A DNA stretch of 59,504 nucleotides from a virus: positions 1-59,504 of IMG/VR virus record IMGVR_UViG_3300015171_000005. One strand, 5' to 3'. Under the pieces are notes generated by a model, which was not told the DNA's origin, did not search any database, and saw only the letters and a list, made by a program, of their open reading frames with translations. Position 1 is the stretch's first letter; the number at the start of each line of letters is the position of its first letter. The position numbers and the translations under genes are program-made. Shown piece by piece: positions 38,281 through 42,299 of this stretch.

Positions 38281-38658
38281 ATGAAGACACTCAGTCTCGA
38301 AGAGATCAACAAGCTGGGCATGCGGATAAGGAAGCCCGATGGCTCGCCCGCCGTCGAGCGTACGCGCGAGCCCGAGCCCGACAAGAGCGAAGAACTCCTG
38401 ACCATGCTCTTGGAAGCGATTCGCGCCATGCGCGAGACCAAGACCAACGTCGTGGTGGAAGCCAATCCGCAACTCGAACTCCTGTCGTCGAGCATCCTGA
38501 AAGTCCTGAAACAAAATACCGAACTCATGCAAGTCGTGCGTGACGCGATGAAGAAGGAAGAACTCGAAGTGCCTGAATCCCCTCCTTGTGAATGGAGCTT
38601 CGAAGTGATATACGACAAGGGCAAAATCACTCACATCAAAGCCAAGGAAATCAAATGA
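38281..38658 (+). CDS. small virion-operon protein, 125 aa
   Basis: It starts one base after the stop of the giant protein. The N-terminal part is charged and helical (LSLEEINKLGMRIRKPDG), with a central coiled coil and a C-terminal WSFEVIYDKGKITHIKAKE beta hairpin. It could be a chaperone or linker for its large neighbour. An HNH gene follows after 5 nt on the opposite strand. Confidence 0.7.
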   Translation: MKTLSLEEINKLGMRIRKPDGSPAVERTREPEPDKSEELLTMLLEAIRAMRETKTNVVVEANPQLELLSSSILKVLKQNTELMQVVRDAMKKEELEVPESPPCEWSFEVIYDKGKITHIKAKEIK

Positions 38659-38663
38659 GTGTG

Positions 38664-39275
38664 CTACCGCTCTTTCGACTTCTTCTTGAGTTCGCGTATA
38701 CGACGTTCTGCCAACTGCCATTCATGGTAGTAGGTGCCGTATCCGGGGCAGCTTCCGGGCTGCTGCTTTCCACGCAGGTAAATACGCAGATTCTTTATTT
38801 CGTTGTTGGTCTTATTGCCATCGCGATGATCAACACATTCATACGATTCAAGCGCGCGTCCCAAATGCATCGCCATGATGAAGCGATGAGCCATAACAGG
38901 CTGGCCGCATCTCTGCATCTTGCGGTAGATGGGCAAAAATTTCATCGGCACATCGCGCGGCAGGAATTTCGTATACCCCATATTCGTGGTTCGGCCCGGA
39001 GTAAGGCGCAAGCCGATGCGCCATTTATGGGTGCCGTCTTTGACTTTCTTGATTGCGCACGGGCGGCACAAACCGAGAAAGTTAGGCCGCTTCATTTCTT
39101 TTCGTATTTCCGTAGCCGGTCTAATGCGTTTTCCTTTACATTCAGGGCAGCGCACTGTAACAAGAACTCTGGAATATCCTTTGTATTTGGCTAGAACAGG
39201 AGCCGAAATTACAGAAGGATGCTTGATAGCGGTGAAGATAGGGGCGCGAGGCACACATAGTTCCGTAGAGTTCAA
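38664..39275 (-). CDS. HNH homing endonuclease, antisense in the virion operon
   Basis: The minus-strand protein of up to 203 residues has a zinc-ribbon-like N-terminal half (VRCPECKGKR and GLCRPCAIKK) and an HNH core (MAHRFIMAMHLGRAL, then ECVDHRDGNKTNNEIKNLR). Its DNA is less GC-rich than the neighbours. The assigned start is TTG with no clear SD, so the N terminus is uncertain. It fills the gap between two plus-strand virion genes in the opposite orientation, typical of a free-standing homing gene inserted between genes. Confidence 0.8.
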   Translation of the reverse strand: MNSTELCVPRAPIFTAIKHPSVISAPVLAKYKGYSRVLVTVRCPECKGKRIRPATEIRKEMKRPNFLGLCRPCAIKKVKDGTHKWRIGLRLTPGRTTNMGYTKFLPRDVPMKFLPIYRKMQRCGQPVMAHRFIMAMHLGRALESYECVDHRDGNKTNNEIKNLRIYLRGKQQPGSCPGYGTYYHEWQLAERRIRELKKKSKER

Positions 39276-39302
39276 ACGTATATCTTATCAATAGAGGTAA
39301 AA

Positions 39303-39743
39303 ATGTCAAAATCTGACGCGTTCGAGGCCGATTTTCTGAAGCTGATCTTCAACGCCACGCCGATCGCCAACATCGGGGATAACGCGGCGGCTTCGCCGCT
39401 CACGCAGTTGTTCGTCGCTCTACACACGGCTGACCCCGGCGAAACGGGCACGCAAGCCACCAGCGAAACGGCGTACACCGGCTATGCGCGCCAGCAGGTT
39501 GCGCGCACCACGGGCGGATGGACGGTGAGCGGCACGGCACCGACGCAGGTTGCGCCGGTTGCCAACATCGACTTTCCAATCTGCACCGCGTCACCGGGTG
39601 CCGCCATCACGCACTGGTCAGTCGGTGTGGCGGTCTCGGGCGCGACCAAGCTCCTGTACAGCGGGACGGTCTCACCCAACATTACAATGGCAATAAATGT
39701 CATTCCCCGGCTCACTACAGCTTCAACAATTACGGAGGATTGA
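39303..39743 (+). CDS. small virion protein whose 3' end is recoded
   Basis: The 146-residue protein begins MSKSDAFEADFLKLIF and resembles the small phage proteins with ALHTADPGETGTQATSETAY, a pattern common in fibre-proximal proteins. AGAGG precedes the ATG. Its last 15 residues (NVIPRLTTASTITED) are encoded a second time at the end of the next gene with different codons. The GC-poor third positions of the 3' end contrast with the rest of the gene. It is flanked on both sides by HNH genes. Confidence 0.8.
   Translation: MSKSDAFEADFLKLIFNATPIANIGDNAAASPLTQLFVALHTADPGETGTQATSETAYTGYARQQVARTTGGWTVSGTAPTQVAPVANIDFPICTASPGAAITHWSVGVAVSGATKLLYSGTVSPNITMAINVIPRLTTASTITED
39696..39743 (+). repeat. 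synonymously recoded 3' end, copy 1
   Basis: These 48 bases encode the 15 C-terminal residues and stop of the virion protein. Compared with 40138-40185, all 15 residues are the same but 12 codons differ, all synonymously; only ACG GAG GAT is identical, which also supplies the GGAGG for the next start. It looks like a cassette that travels with the HNH gene to restore its target. Confidence 0.85.
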
Positions 39744-39744
39744 A

Positions 39745-40185
39745 ATGACTCCTGAAGAGCGCAAAAAATTGCGCAACGCCGCAGTGCGTCGATACGAAAA
39801 GCGCAACCCGGATAAAAAGAAAGCATGGGCGCGTAAGACGTATTTGAATCGATCAGCAGAAGAAAGGCAGAAGCAGGCTGATCAGAACTTGAACGCCGCG
39901 CGGGCAATGCGCCAAATGCTTTTGAAAGCCATGGGCGGCAAGTGTGTGCGCTGTGGTTTCGATGATTGGCGCGCCCTTCAGGCTGACCACATACATGGCG
40001 GTGGCGGTAAAGAACGCGCAGTAGTCACGAACCGGAACGCGTACTACAAAACCATTCTGGCGAACCCGGATAAATATCAGTTGCTCTGCGCAAATTGCAA
40101 TTGGATCAAGCGGTATGAAAAAGAAGAATACCGCTGGAACGTGATCCCGCGCCTGACCACCGCCAGCACGATCACGGAGGATTAA
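39745..40185 (+). CDS. HNH homing endonuclease inserted into the 3' end of a virion gene
   Basis: The 146-residue protein has a basic N-terminal helix region (TPEERKKLRNAAVRRYEKR), then CVRCGFDDWRALQADHIHGGG and LLCANCNWIKR, a clear HNH/zinc pattern. The SD GGAGG is formed by the end of the upstream gene. Its own last 15 residues, NVIPRLTTASTITED, are those of the virion protein and carry the phage's GC-rich codons. So the ancestral 3' end of the target gene now forms the end of the nuclease gene. Confidence 0.88.
   Translation: MTPEERKKLRNAAVRRYEKRNPDKKKAWARKTYLNRSAEERQKQADQNLNAARAMRQMLLKAMGGKCVRCGFDDWRALQADHIHGGGGKERAVVTNRNAYYKTILANPDKYQLLCANCNWIKRYEKEEYRWNVIPRLTTASTITED
40138..40185 (+). 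repeat. ancestral 3' end of the virion gene, copy 2
   Basis: This copy uses GC-rich codons like the rest of the operon and is followed at normal spacing by the next structural gene (ATG 40190), so it is probably the original 3' end. It is now fused in frame to the HNH gene. The insert between the two copies is 442 bp, counted from the start of one copy to the start of the other. Confidence 0.8.
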
Positions 40186-40189
40186 GCGA

Positions 40190-40462
40190 ATGCCGAATCC
40201 CAACGAACAGGCAGTAGGGCTAGCAGCCGGGTTAACGGGCCTGAAGGCCCGGATGCTCGAAGTCACGCAGCAAGTGGCTGGCCAAGCGGTCACGTCAGAA
40301 ATGCAAGTGGTGTGTATTTCTGACGCAGCAGGCAACATCGTTGGTGTTTTTCCAGACCCTGCGGTACAGCAGGGCATGCTTCAGGAATTACGTGCGATAC
40401 GCGGTCTTCTTGCTCGCAGGAACGGCGAACTCGATCTCAGTGGCGATATCATTCAACCTTAA
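40190..40462 (+). CDS. small virion-operon protein, 90 aa
   Basis: GGAGG lies within the end of the preceding gene. The protein begins MPNPNEQAVGLAAGLTGL, with a short helical region and a beta turn (MQVVCISDAAGNIVGVFP), ending in a helical ELRAIRGLLARRNGEL. Similar small proteins precede tail genes in other phages. Function unknown. Confidence 0.7.
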   Translation: MPNPNEQAVGLAAGLTGLKARMLEVTQQVAGQAVTSEMQVVCISDAAGNIVGVFPDPAVQQGMLQELRAIRGLLARRNGELDLSGDIIQP

Positions 40463-40474
40463 AGGAGAAATAAA

Positions 40475-41227
40475 ATGCCGTCCCCCGCAGCACTCATTCG
40501 TGGTCTCGTATCCCGCGTCCTGCCCCAACTTTCGCCTGACGGTACCGACAGTGAAAAAGCATTTCGCTTGGGTCGTGATGGCTCCGTCTTCACTACCTTC
40601 GCACACAGCACCAAGCACCCGCAAGCGCATGAAGGGGCGTACTTTGCAATAGGCAACCCCACCGAAGGTACGGGTGTCGCAGGGGGTATCACGTCGGCCT
40701 TCACCAACACCGTCGCTGCGTTCGCCATCTTCAACAACAACGATGCGAACAACCCGGTGTCGCGTTCCATCGACATCGATTTCTTGAAGCTGCTGTATAC
40801 GGTGGCTCCAGCGACGGCGTCGGCCATGCGCTACGCGATTGCAATCGATGACATCGCACGCACGCCTTCGGCTGGTTTCGCCAAGCTGACGGGATCAGCG
40901 GGGGTGAGTGCAGCAAACCCGGTGGGCCAAGTCATCAACCTCTCCGGTGCCATCGCTTATGCCTTCACGGGCGGTGTGCTCATGACGGTTCCGGCCCCCG
41001 GCCCCGCTGTGCGTTACGTGGCGCGTGGTGGTATCGCTGGTCTTCCGGTCGTGGGTACTGAACATCTGATCCGCTTCGGCGCAGACGGTGCCAACTCCGC
41101 ACAGGGAACCATCGATGCTCCGGTATCGATCGCGCCCGGTAAATGGTGCGTCGTGCATATCTGGTGGCCGGGCAACGCCACCACGGGACCGAGCGCCGAA
41201 TACTCGCTGGGCCTGATCGAGAAGTAA
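40475..41227 (+). CDS. virion structural protein, 250 aa
   Basis: AAAGGAG precedes the ATG. The sequence is beta-rich with many Ala/Gly/Thr (FTNTVAAFAIFNNNDANN, MRYAIAIDDIARTPSAGF, APGKWCVVHIWWPGNATT) and lacks Cys-based motifs and membrane segments. It resembles phage tail or minor head proteins of about 250 residues. The assignment to the virion is by context. Confidence 0.7.
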   Translation: MPSPAALIRGLVSRVLPQLSPDGTDSEKAFRLGRDGSVFTTFAHSTKHPQAHEGAYFAIGNPTEGTGVAGGITSAFTNTVAAFAIFNNNDANNPVSRSIDIDFLKLLYTVAPATASAMRYAIAIDDIARTPSAGFAKLTGSAGVSAANPVGQVINLSGAIAYAFTGGVLMTVPAPGPAVRYVARGGIAGLPVVGTEHLIRFGADGANSAQGTIDAPVSIAPGKWCVVHIWWPGNATTGPSAEYSLGLIEK

Positions 41228-41228
41228 C

Positions 41229-42299
41229 ATGCTGATCGTTCTACAGCAGCCTTACCCCCTCTCGGGGGTAGGGTCGTCTGATGGCGTGGCGACGGTCCCC
41301 GGCGTCGGCGCTGCGCTCTGGGCGATCACCGCCATATCAACAGGTGTCGGCGCTGCCAGTGGCACGGGCAACGCGGTGTGGGCCGTTGCAGGAAGCTCTA
41401 CGGGGCTGGCGACGGTCCCCGGCGTCGGCGCTGCGCTCTGGGCGATCACGGGTAGTTCCGCTGGTGTTGCTACAGCCCCAGCAGCGGGGGCTGCGCTCTG
41501 GGCCGTCGCAGGAAGCGCCGCTGGGGTGGGAGCGGCTCCTGCGATGGGGAACGCGCTCTGGGCCGTCGCAGGAAGCTCGGCGGGCGTGGCATCGGCCAGC
41601 AGCGTGGGCGACGCGCTCTGGGCCGTCTCGGGAGCGGCTGCGGGCGTGGGTGCCGCCAGCGGTACCGGCGTGGCCCTCACCTTGGCCGCAGGCACCAGCA
41701 CCGGGGTGGCAACGGCCCCAAGCGTCGGAGATGCGATCTGGGCGGTCGTAGGTAGCTCGGCAGGCGCATCCACCGCTCCGGGCGTCGGGGCCGACGCTGC
41801 CGCGCCCAGCGCCGCCGTAGGTACGTCGGCAGGTGTAGCGGCGGCTCCTGCGGTCGGAGCGGCCCTCTGGGCGATCACAGGAGCGTCGGCTGGTCTCGGG
41901 GTAGCCACGGCCACCGGCAACGCGCTGTGGGCTGCTACAGGGCAATCCGCAGGGGTGGCTGGCGGGCAGGCGGTGGGGGCTGCGATCCTCCCGAGCGTTG
42001 GATCAGCCAGTGGAACAGGAGTGGCGGCAGCGGTCGGGATGGACGGCAACGTGGCTACGGTCGTCGCGGCTGCGGGGACGGCAGCGGGCACCAGTGATGC
42101 GCCCGGCGTAGGTTTCGCCGTCACCAAGACCACAGGTGGCACCGCGTACCAGCGAGCGGTCCAGAAGGCGCTCGACGAATACCCGCTGCCGGTGGCGGCT
42201 GACAGAAATGACAACCAGAACGATGTCGTACTCGCGTGCGTGCACGCATTCTTGAAGATCAAAGGAAAACGCCATGAGCATCGGAGATTGTCTCGCTAA
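41229..42299 (+). CDS. repeat protein of 20-residue Gly/Ala/Val units, 356 aa
   Basis: About 13 tandem units of roughly 20 residues span residues 15-290, each like GVATVPGVGAALWAITGSSA. At DNA level, 43 bp at 41287-41329 recur exactly at 41407-41449. Most units contain one Trp at a fixed place, suggesting stacked beta or solenoid structure. The last about 60 residues (TAYQRAVQKALDEYPLP) form a normal helical domain. It is probably a structural or adhesive virion protein. No family is recognised. Confidence 0.75.
   Translation: MLIVLQQPYPLSGVGSSDGVATVPGVGAALWAITAISTGVGAASGTGNAVWAVAGSSTGLATVPGVGAALWAITGSSAGVATAPAAGAALWAVAGSAAGVGAAPAMGNALWAVAGSSAGVASASSVGDALWAVSGAAAGVGAASGTGVALTLAAGTSTGVATAPSVGDAIWAVVGSSAGASTAPGVGADAAAPSAAVGTSAGVAAAPAVGAALWAITGASAGLGVATATGNALWAATGQSAGVAGGQAVGAAILPSVGSASGTGVAAAVGMDGNVATVVAAAGTAAGTSDAPGVGFAVTKTTGGTAYQRAVQKALDEYPLPVAADRNDNQNDVVLACVHAFLKIKGKRHEHRRLSR

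Follow-up and report, generated by a model that had tools for sequence, protein, structure and literature searches.

A gene for an HNH endonuclease interrupts a virion gene close to its native 3' end in the 59,504-nucleotide stretch of viral DNA analyzed here (IMG/VR virus record IMGVR_UViG_3300015171_000005; referred to as the window), and the virion gene now closes with a foreign 3' end that encodes the same terminal peptide as the displaced native one. We consider it very probable that this arrangement constitutes a site-specific homing element, in which the HNH gene is accompanied by a divergent, presumably cleavage-resistant replacement of the gene end that it interrupts and which operates without self-splicing.

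All features of the arrangement lie on the plus strand. The virion gene as a whole spans 39303-39743. Its native part (39303..39671) matches PF23140 (E=5.6e-14) and phrog_240 (E=8e-17) and falls at the 98.9th percentile of codon usage; on the strength of these profile matches, we assign the target to the Gp80 / head-protein family of virion genes. The remainder (39672..39743) is the foreign replacement 3' end, encoding SPNITMAINVIPRLTTASTITED followed by a stop codon. It includes a GGAGG motif (39734..39738) that lies 6 nt before the ATG at 39745 and is, judging from the sequence, the probable ribosome-binding site of the HNH gene. The latter occupies 39745-40185 and is composed of two segments. 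Positions 39745..40137 form the element-specific part, which encodes an HNH / endonuclease VII-like endonuclease (phrog_2255, E=6e-17; Endonuclease_7, a weak match with E=5.5e-4), and positions 40138..40185 are the orphaned native 3' end of the virion gene, read in frame as the C-terminal tail of the HNH protein. A second GGAGG motif within this native end (40176..40180) is located 9 nt before the ATG at 40190 and, as read from the sequence, serves as the ribosome-binding site of the next gene in the operon (40190..40462 in the list of open reading frames), whose 90-aa product gave no confident match in family and profile searches.

The window enzyme has the features of the HNH superfamily, namely a DH...N motif and metal-binding cysteines. 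Residues D81, H82, C67, C70, C115, C118, and N119 are invariant among 10 relatives; these include the catalytic Asp-His pair, encoded at 39985-39990, and the four zinc cysteines. The predicted model of the protein has a pLDDT of 90.5, and its top fold match, though weak, is T4 endonuclease VII. The minus strand carries another HNH gene, unrelated to the first (HNH_3, E=8.9e-10), at 38664-39275, immediately upstream of the virion gene, and no duplicated end was seen by eye beside it. Farther downstream, at 41229-42299, the window encodes a predicted protein that consists of little but short Ala/Gly/Val repeats (GVGAALWA...); similar repeats are found in the related contig L286.

The peptide NVIPRLTTASTITED terminates both the virion gene (39696-39743, copy 1) and the HNH gene (40138-40185, copy 2). 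All 15 residues are identical, whereas 12 of the 15 codons differ, every difference being synonymous. Copy 1 reads AAT GTC ATT CCC CGG CTC ACT ACA GCT TCA ACA ATT ACG GAG GAT TGA, and copy 2 reads AAC GTG ATC CCG CGC CTG ACC ACC GCC AGC ACG ATC ACG GAG GAT TAA. The serine codon is TCA in the former and AGC in the latter, and the only codons common to both are ACG GAG GAT, which contain the GGAGG that precedes the next gene. A preliminary description of this DNA had reported the shared peptide, the synonymous differences, the serine switch, and the three retained codons, and each of these is confirmed on the sequence. We assessed the duplication with an end-anchored comparison of the upstream gene end and the HNH tail, using 1432 mispaired controls. 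The window scored 73, compared with 31 for the best control; thus, the duplicated end is not due to chance. Anchoring at start or stop codons removed Arg/Pro/Ser-rich false frames that had high unanchored scores.

Codon usage distinguishes the two copies. With the other genes of the window as reference, the phage codon-usage percentile is 98.7 for copy 2 and 0.2 for copy 1; therefore, the upstream copy is foreign and the downstream copy is the native end, as the preliminary description had maintained in calling the downstream copy ancestral. The foreign DNA extends beyond the duplicated part. The best codon-usage change point in the virion gene is at 39672, which is 8 codons ahead of copy 1, so that copy 1 represents the last 48 bases of the foreign tract, and none of 20,000 simulated codings of 39672-39740 was as un-phage-like as the actual tract. 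The foreign piece comprises 24 codons including the stop, and the native remnant downstream comprises 16 codons including the stop. Because the foreign tract starts at 39672 and not at 39696, the native gene has lost about 24 bp there: the roughly 24 native bases that held the codons for SPNITMAI are absent from both native remnants. By this reckoning, the empty allele should hold about 24 native bases between 39671 and 40138, and this missing stretch would be the likeliest cut site. The earlier proposal that the element inserted before the last 15 codons is therefore partly upheld, in that the HNH gene does break into the virion gene close to its end and the upstream copy makes that gene whole again; an exact insertion joining 39695 to 40138 is ruled out by the change point.

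The replacement end had also been described as recoded. Two independent codings of NVIPRLTTASTITED in phage usage are expected to differ at 9.3 ± 1.8 codons, and the probability of 12 or more differences is 0.11, which leaves excess recoding unsupported as a sign of design. The two copies differ about as much as unrelated codings would, so a diverged homologue suffices as the source and deliberate recoding is needless. Moreover, the copies found at other sites (see below) differ in amino acids too. A foreign replacement end is indeed present, but for these reasons we regard it as more likely a naturally diverged homologous end, derived from a distant homologue and travelling with the HNH gene, than a recoded version of the native one. 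An exact search of viral contigs yielded no donor of the copy 1 DNA.

Uninterrupted relatives of the virion gene are numerous. None of 80 relatives obtained by a search of viral contigs has a duplicated end, and L332 is likewise without the arrangement. The preliminary description had proposed that a relative without the insert be found. One diverged relative, L042, has no HNH gene of this family nearby and ends in TPNITMAVNVIPRLTTASTITED, which includes NVIPRLTTASTITED; over the final 48 bases it agrees with copy 2 at 41/48 positions and with copy 1 at 34/48. In a DNA comparison of 79 relatives, 56 were closer to copy 2 and 16 were closer to copy 1. The virion-gene relatives found include no near-identical phage with an empty site, and the exact ancestral junction is thus a point that we infer.

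Four genes of this virion family have a related HNH gene downstream, namely, those of the window, L082, L083, and L286. In L286, a contig of a betaproteobacterial MAG and the best genome-contig relative of the HNH set, the HNH gene immediately follows a virion gene of the Gp80 / head-protein family, as it also does in L082 and L083, and the HNH proteins of these three are the nearest to that of the window in a tree of 142. We compared the last 23 codons of 84 members of the virion family with the codon usage of each member's own genome. The HNH-bearing genes took ranks 1 to 4 of 84 for codon-shifted tails, with z values of -5.87 (window), -4.21 (L082), -2.75 (L286), and -2.59 (L083), whereas the most shifted of the 80 HNH-free tails had a z of -1.99 (Mann-Whitney P = 0.0004). 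The same genes again held ranks 1 to 4 for loss of third-position GC in the tail. The gene bodies of the window, L286, and L083 are related, and these three are thus not fully independent cases. The HNH protein of L082 is the nearest to that of the window, yet its virion gene body is only the 81st closest, which indicates horizontal movement of the HNH gene between virion gene lineages.

At this virion gene the duplication is clear in the window only. The native end behind the HNH core amounts to 15 codons in the window, to about TED and a stop codon in L083, and to ED and a stop codon in L286, and no native tail is recognizable in L082; with the native end nearly or wholly gone, the link of L082, L083, and L286 to foreign ends rests on codon usage. 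It is plausible that the orphan ends of the window, L083, and L286 represent a decay series around a retained stop codon, together with a retained ribosome-binding site in L083. The replacement ends of L082 (2772-2880) and L083 (2790-2895) fold more stably than shuffled sequences, with z values of -3.1 and -2.35, respectively, and a hairpin in L082 covers the ribosome-binding site of the HNH gene. Folding of these two tails could possibly control translation of the nuclease.

The preliminary description had suggested looking for HNH genes beside duplicated, recoded ends of neighboring genes in other genomes, and such cases exist. We surveyed 144 distinct HNH loci by start- or stop-anchored comparison with mispaired controls. 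Besides the window, two loci of the 3' type scored well over the control maximum given above, L122 (55) and L089 (50). Both HNH genes adjoin the 3' terminus of a gene for the terminase large subunit (phrog_2, as tested for L089) and have the native end retained beyond them, and the L089 HNH protein ends in the displaced gene end, as does that of the window; L123 is a near-identical, truncated copy of L122. Related terminase genes are uninterrupted with the exception of L283, in which a differently spelled orphan, KEKSFKGGAVRVNI with its stop codon (983-1027), lies approximately 100 bases behind an intact KEKSFRGGAVRVNI with its stop codon, with no HNH gene between them. This orphan terminase end is apparently the scar of a lost element. 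The terminase relatives found in named phages are limited to distant Streptomyces phages.

A mirror-image layout also occurs, in which the HNH gene separates a native gene start, upstream, from a diverged, complete start, downstream. L126, at a DNA methyltransferase gene (score 79), and L128, with MSTTTSRGNYYK / MSTSSRGNYYK, are clear cases, and L090 is a looser one. Three others are weaker individually; their score is 35, a level at which the survey would yield about 0.4 cases by chance. These are L085, at the gene of a DNA polymerase exonuclease subunit, L144, and L172, and in each of them the first codon of the HNH protein is the native start codon. L144 and L172 are at the same position in one unnamed gene family; their HNH proteins do not group closely in the tree of 142, and shared descent of the element is thus unsupported for this pair. 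About 135 of the 144 HNH loci have no detectable duplicated end. Likewise, no convincing duplicated ends were found among HNH relatives in cultured phages (Arthrobacter, Mycobacterium, Synechococcus, and Salmonella), so that these phages provide no laboratory example, and a second pattern search found nothing. One repeated peptide, in L139/L170, resembles a translated tRNA 3' end and was left out of the count. The near-identical short stretches that flank the HNH gene in L139 (= L170), at approximately 2914 and 3257, resemble tRNA 3' ends, and this HNH gene might be an insertion into a tRNA region. In the GenBank phage record MW202497.1 (L334), an unannotated HNH gene of the same family (2405-2800) overlaps the end of the portal gene.

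We consider it somewhat more likely than not that, more broadly, HNH homing elements with diverged, cut-resistant replacement ends are widespread in tailed phages, where they would invade either end of conserved structural and packaging genes and use the native end that they displace as the start or stop region of their own gene, repeatedly rewriting the ends of essential genes without splicing.

We propose the following mechanism for the window element. The mobile unit would consist of the HNH endonuclease gene and the diverged 3' end of the target gene directly upstream. The enzyme would cut a native allele of a Gp80-type virion gene near its (S/T)PNITMA codons, and repair from an element-bearing genome would copy the replacement end and the HNH gene into the cut allele. 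The last 15 native codons would thereby be displaced downstream, where they would still provide the stop codon and the ribosome-binding site for the next gene and, in this phage, incidentally encode the C-terminal tail of the HNH protein. Because the replacement end specifies an identical peptide, the virion protein would stay intact, and the different DNA spelling of that end should remove the cut site; it should likewise make recombination between the two ends, and with it the loss of the HNH gene, less likely. Cleavage, the position of the cut, resistance of the new end, and homing by gene conversion are the steps that we infer.

We weighed other origins for the duplicated end. Had the gene end been duplicated locally in tandem, with subsequent drift and insertion of the HNH gene between the copies, two copies would flank that gene and the upstream one would have no special role. 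Drift, however, would have changed residues as well, and here every difference is synonymous even though the virion protein has no need of the downstream copy; furthermore, the foreign codons begin 8 codons outside the duplicated part and affect the upstream copy only, and three further HNH-carrying genes have a foreign tail. We therefore consider a tandem duplication very unlikely. Introns are a frequent home of HNH genes, and joining 39695 to 40138 would preserve both frame and peptide, as expected if 39696-40137 were a self-splicing group I (or other) intron with an HNH frame, in which copy 1 mimics the exon. The unspliced frame already encodes the full protein, though, the foreign tract begins before 39696, and a permissive Rfam search of 38500-41500 (E up to 5) matched no intron family, group I and group II included. 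This leaves the intron with a practically negligible probability and agrees with the absence of splicing asserted in the preliminary description. An intein is rejected because the virion reading frame ends at 39743, upstream of the HNH start codon. The odd codons of copy 1 might instead reflect a regulatory RNA structure for HNH translation and not a foreign origin, an idea to which the folding of the L082 and L083 tails lends some credit. The tails of the window and L286 give no folding signal (z of 0.17 and 0.47, respectively), yet their codon shift is equally strong, and we reject RNA structure as the cause of that shift and rate this explanation as extremely unlikely.

The remaining alternative, which comes close to the end-replacing element, is an ordinary free-standing nuclease of the T4 seg type that cuts the neighboring gene, with a diverged 3' end co-converted along with it and the duplicated end as the accidental leftover of an imprecise exchange. 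For T4, it is established that intronless homing targets neighboring essential genes and that flanks are co-converted when introns home (PMC2988022), and L286 and L083, which are nearly without an orphan end, would fit such a process. Against it, duplicated ends are seen at several genes unrelated to one another, some at the 5' end and others at the 3' end, and the native fragment directly adjoins the far side of the HNH gene, which is the layout of WHO elements and mobile ORFs. The cut sites of T4 free-standing enzymes are hundreds to thousands of bases away from where the nuclease gene is inserted (PMC2988022). We judge this alternative unlikely, while noting that T4-type homing and an end-replacing element are separated by a difference of degree.

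Elements that replace gene ends are known from yeasts. In Torulaspora and Lachancea, each homing event of a WHO element exchanges the 3' end of the aldolase gene FBA1 for a new one, and the unit is defined as the WHO gene plus the upstream 3' end that confers resistance (PMC7282813). The window has a similar composition, an endonuclease gene with a diverged 3' end of an essential gene upstream. As in the WHO case, the native 3' fragment lies downstream, where it acts in yeast as the second homology arm; no intron or intein is involved, and old fragments decay (PMC7282813). The window contains a diverged replaced end and a native end beyond the nuclease, relatives without the insert have one uninterrupted gene, and the endonuclease would be predicted to cut the native and not the replaced allele. 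The differences are in the enzyme, which is related to HO in WHO elements and is HNH/endonuclease VII-like here; in the orphan end, which is much shorter in the phage (48 bp) and in frame with the nuclease; and in the mirror-image elements at 5' gene ends, which are part of the phage set only. Membership in the WHO family is excluded, since the window enzyme matches HNH/endonuclease VII profiles and folds and not HO/WHO. By analogy, the window element appears to work like WHO without being a member of that family.

In fungal mitochondria, mobile ORFs bring foreign C-termini into atp6, atp9, cox2, and nad3, and the native end is partly or wholly replaced (PMC3630166). The examples from Allomyces (atp6) and Glomus (atp6, atp9, cox2, and nad3) resemble the window in that a foreign C-terminus stands beside the displaced native one and in that the ends have diverged far more in DNA than in protein; the window, L083, and L286 span a range similar to the partial-to-complete end replacement of the mobile ORFs (PMC3630166). 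The mobile ORFs encode LAGLIDADG or GIY-YIG enzymes in mitochondria, whereas an HNH enzyme is found here in tailed phages, with one site occupied in at least four genomes. The T4 pairs SegG/gene 32, SegF/gene 56, and MobE/nrdB (PMC2988022) are alike in being promoterless nuclease cassettes in a phage operon that target a neighboring essential gene without splicing. They sit between genes, in contrast to the window nuclease, which is inside its target gene and retains the displaced native end, and a search of that review for duplications found none on the flanks of a nuclease gene. The window protein resembles phrog_2255 and T4 endonuclease VII in sequence family and, weakly, in fold; the libraries for these families document no homing activity, and the window protein differs in that a fragment of the target gene encodes its C terminus. 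The open-access literature consulted, which included the phage surveys PMC10448857, PMC12724721, and PMC2988022 as searched by term, gave no example of duplicated, diverged gene ends in a phage, nor did it provide a description of the mirror-image 5' version.

The logic of end-replacing homing is therefore known from yeast and fungal mitochondria, and what appears to be new is that phages use it with a nuclease family of separate origin, and that they do so in several essential genes, at the 5' end as well as the 3' end. If our interpretation is correct, phage homing nucleases can inhabit essential coding sequences without introns or inteins by supplying a spare gene end, and abrupt changes of codon usage and mosaic ends in terminase and virion genes would be explained. 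A nuclease gene between two differently spelled copies of a gene end would then be a signature of active elements and of their cut sites. The mechanism described in yeast and fungal mitochondria would thus extend to phages, with the addition of a mirror-image version at the 5' ends of genes.
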